This document shows, in pieces, positions 20,882 to 23,541 of a stretch of 64,000 bases of DNA. Each line of letters starts with the position of its first letter. Position 1 is the stretch's first letter. Position numbers and translations under genes: made by a program. Below the pieces are notes generated by a model. The model was not told the origin of the DNA and did not search any database. It was given only the letters and a program-made list of their open reading frames with translations. This stretch comes from Pseudomonadota bacterium (GTDB lineage: Bacteria > Pseudomonadota > Gammaproteobacteria > Burkholderiales > Burkholderiaceae_C): positions 1 through 64,000 of the forward strand of contig CAUJHQ010000159.1 in assembly GCA_963204815.1 (NCBI GenBank), in the 5' to 3' direction.

Positions 20882-20895
20882 TTGATCGCCCTCAA
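20882..20895. promoter_or_regulatory. FNR/ANR-like box
   Basis: TTGATCGCCCTCAA matches the TTGAT-N4-ATCAA consensus at nine of ten positions. A -10-like CAGAAT lies at 20918-20923, giving a predicted start site near 20930. The box centre (20888.5) is then at -41.5, the class II activation position for FNR-family regulators. It precedes the electron-transfer operon. The rest of the 20639-20978 gap holds no other gene. Confidence 0.6.
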
Positions 20896-20978
20896 GCGGC
20901 AGGTTCCAGCGGCTGCCCAGAATCGACGCGAAGCGGTGTTCAAGCCCTGCGGGCGCGACCCCTGCTGCCATCCTGCCG

Positions 20979-22223
20979 ATGACCGCCATTGAACTGCTGG
21001 GACTGATCGTTGCCGCGCTGCTGCTGCAGTTGACGGCCGGCATCGGCGTGGCGCTGCTGCGCCGGCGGGCCGCCGCGGCCACGGCGCCCGCGCTCCCCGG
21101 GCCCGGCGCAGCGGCGCCGTCGAAGAGCGCATGGGCCGGGTGGCGCGAGTTCCGCGTCGTGCAGCGCGCCTACGAGGACGCGGCGCAGACGCAGTGCTCG
21201 TTCTACCTGCAGCCCGTCGATGGCCAGCCGCTGCCGGCCTTCAAGCCCGGCCAGTTCCTGACCTTCACGCTGGACGTCGACCCGCCCGCGTCGCACGCCG
21301 CGGCCGAGCCGCGCACCATCACGCGCTGCTACTCCTTGTCCGACCGACCCGATCCGGCGGGCTACCGCGTGACGATCAAGCGCGTGCCCGCGCCGGCGGA
21401 CCGCCCCGGGTTCGAGCCGGGCCTGTCGTCGAACCATTTCCACGACCGCGTGCAGGTCGGAGACCTGCTGCGCGTGAAGGCCCCGGCCGGCCACTTCTTC
21501 ATCGATCCCGACCCGAACGTGCCCGTGGTGCTGGTCGGCGGCGGCATCGGCATCACGCCGATGATGAGCATGCTGCGCTGGTGCCTGGCCGAACAGCCGC
21601 AGCGCACGGTGCACCTCTACTACGGGCTGCGCAACAGCCGCGAGCATGCGTTCAAGGCGGTGCTCGAAGGCATCGCCGCAGCACACCCGGCACTGCGCCT
21701 GAACGTCGTCTACAGCCGGCCCGGCGAGGGCGACGTCGAGGGCCGCGACTACCAGCACCGCGGCCACGTCGATGTCGACCTGCTGCGGCGCACGCTGCCG
21801 CATGGGCGCCACCAGTTCTACGTCTGCGGTCCGCCGGCGATGATGGAGACGCTGGTGCCCGCGCTCGCCGCCTGGGGCGTGCCGCGGCCGGACATCCACT
21901 ACGAGGCCTTCGGCCCCGCCTCCGTCAAGCTGCCCGGGGCGCCCGAGGCCGCCGCGCCGACGGCCGCGGAAGTCGAGGTCCGGTTCCAGCGCGCCGGCCG
22001 GACGCTGGTCTGGGACGGGCGGGACGCTTCGCTGCTCGACTTCGCCGAGCGCCATGGCATCGCGGTCGAGTCCGGCTGCCGGTCGGGCGGCTGCGGAAGC
22101 TGCGAGACGCGCCTGGTGGAAGGCGCGGTGCAGTACGAGCACGCGCCGGACCACGAGGTGGCGCCGGGCCATTGCCTGCTTTGCGTGGGCCGGCCGTCGT
22201 CGGCCGTGGTGCTGGAGGCCTGA
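20979..22223 (+). CDS. Membrane-anchored FAD/NAD(P)H reductase with C-terminal 2Fe-2S ferredoxin domain
   Basis: 414 residues. One N-terminal membrane helix is followed by RRR, which places the enzyme domains in the cytoplasm. The FNR-type domains follow: FAD motif RCYSLSD (about 112), NAD(P)-binding GGGIGITPMMSML and YVCGPPAMM. The C-terminal ferredoxin domain has CRSGGCGSC and a final Cys in HCLLC, the plant-type C-x4-C-x2-C...C pattern. It should pass electrons between NAD(P)H and the membrane cytochrome encoded next, whose start overlaps its stop by 1 nt. Confidence 0.9.
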   Translation: MTAIELLGLIVAALLLQLTAGIGVALLRRRAAAATAPALPGPGAAAPSKSAWAGWREFRVVQRAYEDAAQTQCSFYLQPVDGQPLPAFKPGQFLTFTLDVDPPASHAAAEPRTITRCYSLSDRPDPAGYRVTIKRVPAPADRPGFEPGLSSNHFHDRVQVGDLLRVKAPAGHFFIDPDPNVPVVLVGGGIGITPMMSMLRWCLAEQPQRTVHLYYGLRNSREHAFKAVLEGIAAAHPALRLNVVYSRPGEGDVEGRDYQHRGHVDVDLLRRTLPHGRHQFYVCGPPAMMETLVPALAAWGVPRPDIHYEAFGPASVKLPGAPEAAAPTAAEVEVRFQRAGRTLVWDGRDASLLDFAERHGIAVESGCRSGGCGSCETRLVEGAVQYEHAPDHEVAPGHCLLCVGRPSSAVVLEA

Positions 22224-22807
22224 TGCCGCAGCGCCCGAAGCTCCTGACGCGCGAGGTGCTGCCCTTCCTGGGCAGCTTCGTCGCGCTGGCCCTGATCGCG
22301 CTCGCCTTCGACGGCCTGCTGCACCTGTTCGACCTGCTGTGGGTCGGCCGCTGGCTGGGCATTCCCGGCACGCTGATGATCATCGGGTCCACCGCCTACT
22401 CGCTGCGCAAGCGCAAGCTCATCCGCAGCGGTCATCCGGCGAAGCTGCTGCGCTGGCACGAGTGGCTGGCCTGGCTCGGGTCGCTGCTGGTGCTGGTGCA
22501 CGCGGGGGTCCACTTCAACGCCATCCTCGGCTGGCTGGCGGTGTGGGCGATGCTGATCAACGTGGGCAGCGGGCTGACCGGCAAGTTCCTGCTCGACCGC
22601 GCGCGCCGGCGCATGGAAGAGGCGCGCCAGCGCATGCGCGACCGCGGCCTGAGCGAGGCCGAGCTCGAGGACCGCCTCTACTGGGACAGCCTGACCTTCG
22701 ACGTGGTCAAGCAGTGGCGCGTGGTGCACTTCCCGATCACGCTCGCGTTCAGCGTGCTGGCGACGGCCCACATCGTGGCCATCTTCCTGTTCTGGGGCTG
22801 GAAGTGA
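22223..22807 (+). CDS. Integral membrane cytochrome b-like protein
   Basis: 194 residues with about four or five membrane segments. Histidines placed in or near the helices (LLRWHEWLAW, LVHAGVHF, WRVVHFPITLAF, TAHIVAIF) could hold two b hemes. Between the helices is a charged cytoplasmic stretch (RARRRMEEARQRMRD). It resembles small cytochrome-b561/ferric-reductase-like membrane proteins, but the family is not certain. It is coupled by overlap to the reductase before it and the octaheme cytochrome after it, so it probably carries electrons across the membrane. Confidence 0.8.
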   Translation: MPQRPKLLTREVLPFLGSFVALALIALAFDGLLHLFDLLWVGRWLGIPGTLMIIGSTAYSLRKRKLIRSGHPAKLLRWHEWLAWLGSLLVLVHAGVHFNAILGWLAVWAMLINVGSGLTGKFLLDRARRRMEEARQRMRDRGLSEAELEDRLYWDSLTFDVVKQWRVVHFPITLAFSVLATAHIVAIFLFWGWK

Positions 22808-23541
22808 AGCAGCGACCCGTCCTGCTGATCGTCATCGCGCTCAACCTGCTCGTGCTGGTGGCGCTCGCCTTCGCCTACCCGCACCTGATGGTGAGCCCGG
22901 GGCCGCTGGTGAAGGGCCACGCCGAACTCACCACCGATTGCTTCGCCTGCCATGCCGCCCTGCGCGGCGCCTCTTCACTGCGCTGCACCGAGTGCCACGT
23001 GACGGCCGACGTGGGGCTGAAGACCACCCAGGGCGTGCCCATTCCAAGCCGCTCCATCAAGGTGTCCTTCCACCAGGAACTCATCGAGCAGGACTGCATG
23101 GCCTGCCACAGCGACCACCAGGGGCCGAAGCTCACCAAGCGCAGCCGGAAGCCGTTCTCGCACGGGCTGCTGAAGGTTTCGGTGCGCGACACCTGCTCGT
23201 CGTGCCACGCGGCGCCCGAGGACACGCTGCACCGCGATCTGAAGGTCGAGTGCTCGAAGTGCCACGGCAGCGAGGCCTGGAAGCCGGCCACCTTCGACCA
23301 CGCCGAGTACTTCGTGCTCGACCGGGATCACGACGCCACCTGCGAGACCTGCCACAAGAACAACGACTTCAGCCGCTACACCTGCTACGGCTGCCACGAG
23401 CACTCGGAAGCCAAGGTTCGGCGCGAGCACCTCGAGGAAGGTATCCGCGATTTCCAGGACTGCGTGGAGTGCCACCGGGACCCGCGCGCCGAACCGCGCA
23501 GGCCGGGCGGGCGCGAGCGCGGCGGCAAGTCGAAGGACTGA
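22804..23541 (+). CDS. Eight-heme c-type cytochrome (cytochrome c3-like)
   Basis: 245 residues with an N-terminal membrane anchor or signal (PVLLIVIALNLLVLVALAFA) and eight heme-binding motifs: CFACH, CTECH, CMACH, CSSCH, CSKCH, CETCH, CYGCH and CVECH. The spacing and extra histidines resemble multiheme class III cytochromes. The GTG start overlaps the cytochrome b stop by 4 nt. The C-terminus is basic. It should sit on the periplasmic side and accept or donate electrons for the membrane cytochrome; the terminal partner is unknown. Confidence 0.92.
   Translation: MKQRPVLLIVIALNLLVLVALAFAYPHLMVSPGPLVKGHAELTTDCFACHAALRGASSLRCTECHVTADVGLKTTQGVPIPSRSIKVSFHQELIEQDCMACHSDHQGPKLTKRSRKPFSHGLLKVSVRDTCSSCHAAPEDTLHRDLKVECSKCHGSEAWKPATFDHAEYFVLDRDHDATCETCHKNNDFSRYTCYGCHEHSEAKVRREHLEEGIRDFQDCVECHRDPRAEPRRPGGRERGGKSKD

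Follow-up and report, generated by a model that had tools for sequence, protein, structure and literature searches.

The window, by which we mean the whole 64-kb stretch of DNA that was analysed, contains three adjacent and overlapping genes on the + strand between positions 20979 and 23541, which we call A, B and C. Gene A overlaps gene B by 1 nt and gene B overlaps gene C by 4 nt, and in all three alike the third codon position is the most divergent in comparison with each of four relatives. A first-pass annotation of this DNA, which had described three overlapping genes, is thereby borne out. The genes, their principal domains and the predicted promoter elements are located as follows.

20882..20895, + strand: FNR-type box TTGATCGCCCTCAA, agreeing with 9/10 consensus bases
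20918..20923, + strand: -10-like element CAGAAT, 22 nt past the box, a spacing that recurs in 17/25 boxed upstreams
20930, + strand: predicted transcription start, placed from the box and the -10 spacing, with the box centre at -41.5
20979..22223, + strand: gene A, predicted membrane-anchored FAD/NAD(P)H/[2Fe-2S] reductase of 414 aa (Pfam domains, motifs)
21003..21059, + strand: N-terminal transmembrane segment of A, residues 9-27, with RRR next to it (hydropathy)
21996..22196, + strand: [2Fe-2S] domain at the C terminus of A, residues 340-406 (PF00111, E 6e-12)
22223..22807, + strand: gene B, membrane protein of 194 aa, predicted diheme cytochrome b (model, invariant His)
22436..22513, + strand: helix 3 of B, residues 72-96, with HX13H (His79, His93) and with His97 right after it (alignment, model)
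22691..22801, + strand: helix 5 of B, residues 157-193, with WX3HX13H (Trp165, His169, His183) (alignment, model)
22804..23541, + strand: gene C, predicted anchored octaheme cytochrome c of 245 aa with a GTG start (eight CXXCH, Pfam)
22819..22875, + strand: N-terminal membrane anchor of C, residues 6-24 (hydropathy)
22939..23475, + strand: heme region of C, CXXCH one to eight (alignment of 51)

The three predicted proteins

Protein A matches the Pfam families PF00970 (FAD_binding_6), PF00175 (NAD_binding_1) and PF00111 (Fer2). Its motifs RxYS and CX4CX2CXnC are each present in 49/49 A proteins, GGxGx[ST]P in 47/49 and CGPP in 32/49. Since the transmembrane segment is followed by RRR, the bulk of A would lie on the cytoplasmic side by the positive-inside rule. 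The Pfam domains and this segment support the earlier reading of A as an anchored NAD(P)H FAD/2Fe-2S reductase that faces the cytoplasm. The best NCBIfam matches, among the matches listed, were of the Hcr/PaaE type and flavohaemoglobin-reductase-like, all below the cut-offs. The Hcr/PaaE reductases and the flavohaemoglobin reductase domain have FAD, NAD(P) and [2Fe-2S] domains as A does, whereas A also carries a membrane anchor at its N terminus and is linked to B and C.

Protein B matched no Pfam family at E 0.1, the ferric reductase domain included. Its residues His79, His93, His169 and His183 are invariant in 32/32 sequences, a comparison that takes in a Desulfobacteraceae relative with 24% identity, and they form two HX13H motifs; SGXXG (116-120) is also kept. 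An AlphaFold model of B (pLDDT 77.9) shows five principal helices, of which numbers 3 and 5 hold the His pairs, whereas hydropathy at the chosen cut-off marked four segments. Helix 5 keeps the motif Trp before His169; in helix 3 the corresponding residue is Leu75. On account of the basic loops SLRKRK and RARRRMEEARQRMRDR, the N terminus of B is predicted to be inside, with helices 3 and 5 parallel and one His pair at each membrane face.

A diheme His pattern has been described for ferric reductases and NADPH oxidases (PMC3591440), and the relevant passages of PMC5566968 give HX13H pairs both for the ferric reductase/NOX domain and for the inner-membrane proteins of PCC3 and PCC4. Protein B and the ferric reductase (FRD)/NADPH oxidase (NOX) superfamily are alike in the four predicted heme His on helices 3 and 5 and in a cytoplasmic-side FAD/NAD(P)H domain that would supply the electrons. 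Unlike that superfamily, the trio splits this arrangement into two genes and adds a [2Fe-2S] domain and a multiheme periplasmic head, and B is without a Pfam match. PDB sequences searched with a B profile gave no match, even at E 10, and a Foldseek search with the B model gave none at E 0.001. In the VIA-align rows for the model, NOX5, NOX2 and STEAP were present and scored no higher than unrelated bundles, and for this reason we withhold any claim about the fold of B. At the level of sequence, the invariant histidines support a step resembling that of diheme b cytochromes, in agreement with the initial description of B as a membrane cytochrome b.

A further residue, His97, is almost invariant in B and lies four residues past His93, as does the extra histidine of NOX2 (His-119 versus His-115; PMC3591440). 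It would suit a protein that itself reduces O2 in the manner of NOX enzymes, with C serving as an electron sink or scavenger. We regard such an activity as highly improbable: His97 is missing in L062, the most distant relative, the same operon makes an eight-heme acceptor, and the FNR-type control considered below would make an oxidase of this kind unlikely.

Protein C matches the Pfam families Cytochrom_CIII and Cytochrome_C7. The eight hemes attributed to it by the first-pass annotation correspond to eight CXXCH motifs that, together with nine other His, are invariant in 51/51 C proteins (57, window included, minus L062, L055, L012, L023, L040 and L046). Most relatives have 8 or 10 CXXCH. 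No obvious signal peptidase site was seen in C by eye. Because the nine further conserved His are enough to serve eight hemes, C suits the role of an electron wire in which all eight hemes would be bis-His; a catalytic heme, of which there was no sign, was considered and rejected on the same count. The predicted model of C was poor.

Conservation of the gene set and of the upstream box

A scan of genome contigs with B recovered 57 related loci, which belong mainly to Burkholderiales and other Betaproteobacteria, the remainder being from Alphaproteobacteria, one Lysobacterales and one Desulfobacteraceae (taxon labels are as recorded, and some labels of MAGs are odd). The gene order, which the earlier annotation proposed to seek in other genomes, is kept as A-B-C in 49/57 of these loci, a few of them truncated at contig ends. 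At one of the others the contig ends within B (L059), at the Desulfobacteraceae locus (L062) a lone [2Fe-2S] ferredoxin replaces A, and at six (L031, L034, L052, L055, L056 and L061) A is absent, with no close A protein in the genomes of these six. Genes A and B overlap or are closely spaced at most related loci, and the 4-nt overlap of B and C recurs in 55 of the 57 rows having C (window counted; start codons partly picked by alignment). B-like proteins were found in 24/398 genomes of the phylum at E 1e-58 or better and in 21/399 genomes of the family at 3e-71 or better. In a family sample of 20 loci, the window aside, A-B-C is kept in 20/20 (two ends cut by contigs); 13 of these loci are on contigs outside the 57 and 7 repeat contigs among the 57. 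A plasmid search with B gave no match. Judged by its gene order, the trio is a conserved set.

The exceptions to this order bear on how electrons might reach B. Because L062 has only a ferredoxin for A, the 2Fe-2S domain of A may be the contact with, or gate to, B, and the loci without A suggest that B and C can have another donor. A rather unlikely alternative is that B trades electrons with the quinone pool, leaving A as an accessory reductase or an alternative entry. This would accommodate the six loci that have B and C in genomes without a close A, and a quinone-active cytochrome b is suggested for the two-HX13H proteins of PCC3 and PCC4 in the passages of PMC5566968 that deal with them. 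The overlap or close spacing of A and B at most loci, the order kept throughout the family sample and the substitution of a ferredoxin for A in Desulfobacteraceae argue against it.

Upstream of gene A, TTGATCGCCCTCAA is the sole site with at most one mismatch in the 64-kb window. The match of this single box is modest evidence, because 12/100 shuffles of the window also hold at least one such near-match; it is its conservation across orthologous upstreams that leads us to judge the box real. An exact TTGA-N6-TCAA is present in 25/49 upstreams of 150 nt (window included), against an expected mean of 0.06 and a maximum of 1 in 200 first-order resamplings, and each of two controls gave 0, one being the reversed pattern and the other the initial 150 nt of A. 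These 49 upstreams remain from the 52 that have A, the window among them, after removal of L062, with a ferredoxin alone, L013, whose A is truncated, and L046, a duplicate of L045. The 24 upstreams without the exact box have weaker sites or none, 10 of them matching 7/8. In 17/25 boxed upstreams, a hexamer whose second base is A and whose sixth is T starts exactly 22 nt downstream of the box. Both the FNR-like box of nine out of ten bases that had been noted at first and its centring at -41.5 from a predicted start near 20930 agree with these data, the former being confirmed by the exact boxes and the latter matching the recurrent 22-nt gap. Among the family loci, the exact box is present in 9/19 testable ones and in 4/12 on contigs not previously counted.

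Across the window's genome, TTGAYN4RTCAA occurs at 12 sites and its reversed form at 1. Genes read by eye as napD, hemN, hemA and ccoN adjoin 4/12 of the sites, a Tat-signal protein with an NrfD-like one after it (also read by eye) adjoins 1/12, and the genes adjoining the other 7/12 were not linked to low oxygen on the same inspection. An ORF of the Crp family (L091) has CX2CX5C near its N terminus and a LETVSR helix, a cysteine pattern and helix that we take to be those of FNR. The trio is probably under FNR-type control and induced at low oxygen.

Neighbouring genes and PCC3-like clusters

Neighbouring genes were called with a simple custom gene caller at 55 loci, L062 and L046 being excluded. 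At most two called genes upstream and one downstream were taken per locus within 2.5 kb, and those encoding 110 to 1000 aa make up a set of 130 proteins. These proteins represent 140 families, and among the 25 most common of them cation P-type ATPases come first (Cation_ATPase_C, 16/130), accompanied by histidine-kinase-type ATPases (5/130), VIT-family proteins (4/130), cytochrome b561 (4/130), several families with 3/130 each, Usp among them, and Cation_efflux (2/130). At two Rhodocyclaceae loci (L027 and L057), the trio is preceded, on its own strand, by genes read as ccoO-Q-P-G-H (cbb3 oxidase, FixG/FixH). The neighbours point to micro-oxic life generally, with no single acceptor indicated. 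That FNR control is shared with the neighbours as a general rule was considered and rejected, since exact boxes lie upstream of just 2/18 neighbour P-type ATPases; near the other neighbours they number 0/5 for VIT, 0/4 for CDF and 0/6 for b561.

The cation-related families in this set (Cation_ATPase_C, VIT and Cation_efflux) would be in keeping with a trio that acts as a periplasmic metal (ferric) reductase for the handling of iron or other cations. We consider this role quite improbable, given the scarcity of exact boxes at the P-type ATPases and the fact that at the window's own trio no cation-transport neighbour was recognised by eye. A reductase of soluble metal would, moreover, need no eight-heme wire.

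Elsewhere in the same genome (G000:C29), the B profile finds a 324-aa protein (E 8e-19) whose gene adjoins ORFs with 24 and 26 CXXCH and lies near a 4Fe-4S pyridine-nucleotide oxidoreductase. This cluster resembles PCC3 as described by He et al. 2017 (PMC5566968), where the relevant passages give the inner-membrane protein two WX3HX13H motifs and SGXXG. By profile and motif, B is distantly related to the inner-membrane protein of PCC3, a type of cluster that is itself uncharacterised: B has two HX13H, in helices 3 and 5, as well as an SGXXG in helix 4, and its partner C matches the PCC3 multiheme cytochrome at E 7e-8, which is weak evidence given that both proteins are rich in CXXCH. The trio differs from PCC3 in that B has 194 aa versus about 300 and is without the Trp of WX3HX13H in helix 3, C has 8 hemes versus 20 or more, and the operon includes its own FAD/[2Fe-2S] reductase.

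PCC3-like clusters are commoner in trio genomes, at 10/21 versus 21/378 (p 4e-7) and, by genus, 8/16 versus 11/125 (p 2e-4, hand tally), in counts that take in the window's own genome and with statistics that ignore shared descent. Of 33 genomes assigned to the PCC3 type by weak match, 31 were retained, the two dropped being without a cytochrome ORF of at least 20 motifs (one of them cut by a contig end); at 33/35 loci such an ORF lies near the PCC3-like membrane gene. This co-occurrence is the one hint of the extracellular acceptor that the first-pass annotation had put forward as an option. Beside the trio, inspection of the window's gene list by eye recognised no porin and no gene for an outer-membrane or extracellular cytochrome, and no porin family is among the 25 commonest of the 140 families in the 130 neighbour proteins from 55 loci. 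If the hint were borne out, the trio might feed electrons from NAD(P)H into extracellular electron transfer independently of quinones, as a split engine of the NADPH-oxidase type with an octaheme head that would dock the giant PCC3 cytochromes coming from another locus. Low-oxygen cells would then discharge NADH directly outside, helped by the membrane potential. We view this arrangement as unlikely.

Predicted path of electrons

Starting from the observed gene set, motifs, conservation and FNR-site footprint, we infer the cofactors, the formation of a complex, the direction of flow and the acceptor. Our preferred reading, to which we assign a probability of roughly 0.6, takes the trio for an NAD(P)H:periplasmic-cytochrome reductase of the inner membrane that low oxygen would induce and that would work as an outward and quinone-independent overflow valve. 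On the cytoplasmic side, A would transfer a hydride from NAD(P)H to FAD and then pass single electrons to its [2Fe-2S] cluster. Two stacked b hemes in B, presumably ligated by His79 and His169 near the cytoplasm and by His93 and His183 near the periplasm, would carry these electrons across the membrane in the manner of NADPH oxidases. From there the electrons would spread over the eight bis-His c hemes of protein C, which would be held in the membrane by its N-terminal helix, and pass on to partners in the periplasm. The probable recipients are soluble c-type cytochromes supplying cbb3 oxidase or periplasmic reductases; where PCC3 is present, its giant cytochromes may be recipients too. Such a valve would shed surplus reducing power outward with no pumping of ions.

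Outward flow from NAD(P)H is downhill in potential and aided by the membrane potential, whereas inward flow to NAD(P)+ is uphill in potential and opposed by the membrane potential. For this reason the option of running in reverse, which the original description had left in place, appears unlikely. In its most explicit form the trio would run inward from periplasmic or extracellular donors, for example Fe(II) by way of PCC3, to NAD(P)+. We think this very unlikely, since from Fe(II)-range potentials to NAD+ the path would be uphill and against the membrane potential, and the trio is without an ion-coupling subunit. The greater frequency of PCC3-like clusters in trio genomes is in its favour, and passages of PMC5566968 and PMC10734462 consider PCC3 as a candidate machinery for the oxidation of Fe(II).

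In the models of PMC5566968 considered here, the two-HX13H inner-membrane protein is drawn as a likely quinone enzyme. A conserved operon that couples a protein of this type to an NAD(P)H/[2Fe-2S] reductase would open a direct path, amenable to testing, by which NAD(P)H could reduce periplasmic heme; with outward flow along it, cells at low oxygen could rid themselves of reducing power while bypassing the quinone pool. The trio is also a small three-gene system in which the heme, the direction and the partner of the Pfam-less B family could be studied.

The first-pass annotation did not recognise the trio as a described respiratory complex. No characterisation of the trio was found in the literature searched, and to this extent the statement holds; however, the kind of trio has probably been noticed before. 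He et al. 2017 (PMC5566968) mention, in a passage that gives no function, porin-less clusters of a multiheme cytochrome and a short five-helix protein with two HX13H, in most cases together with another redox protein. The trio is like these clusters in its short two-HX13H membrane protein, multiheme cytochrome, further redox protein and lack of a porin. It is unlike them in two respects: the inner-membrane gene is downstream of the cytochrome gene in the clusters and upstream of it in the trio, and most of the short proteins of the clusters are stated to have no significant similarity to PCC3 or PCC4 proteins, whereas B has a profile match to a PCC3-like protein. That earlier notice, as far as the passage goes, comes without regulation or a link to NAD(P)H. 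An unnamed decaheme cytochrome with no porin nearby is also mentioned for relatives of Leptothrix in a passage of PMC13386937, and our guess is that it may be a ten-heme form of C.

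Histidines of B and heme number of C

The predicted diheme cytochrome b of the trio, B, retains His97 (window:22511-22513) four residues past His93, a spacing equal to that reported in PMC3591440 for the extra histidine of NOX enzymes. The octaheme cytochrome, C, also occurs in a ten-heme form, in which an insert carries two additional CXXCH motifs; these forms are interspersed among close relatives of eight-heme forms, and the loci listed are examples, with others found besides.

Ten-heme C at loci related to the trio
L006:6582-7454, ten-heme C
L007:6582-7454, ten-heme C
L010:6582-7484, ten-heme C
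L022:6567-7433, ten-heme C

Genes adjoining B and the trio

At L034, a locus lacking the reductase A, the reading frame of B follows directly on an apparent N-terminal membrane helix of A without the catalytic part (L034:5767-6576); this may reflect gene decay, a truncated version or a mistake in the assembly. Neighbors of the trio at L022:1598-3239 and L025:1879-3667 read as cytochrome b561, diheme cytochrome c and monoheme cytochrome genes, and in two Rhodocyclaceae loci (L027:190-4389 and L057:67-4274) genes read as ccoO, ccoQ, ccoP, ccoG and FixH lie upstream on the same strand.

A PCC3-like cluster in the same genome

The window's own genome also contains a cluster resembling PCC3 of He et al. 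2017.

L063 (G000:C29:44000-60000) and L090, PCC3-like cluster

Its members include a 324-aa membrane protein with two HX13H motifs, ORFs with 24 and 26 CXXCH motifs, and a 971-aa protein whose sole match is a weak one to TPR; a membrane-anchored 4Fe-4S pyridine-nucleotide oxidoreductase lies near the other genes.
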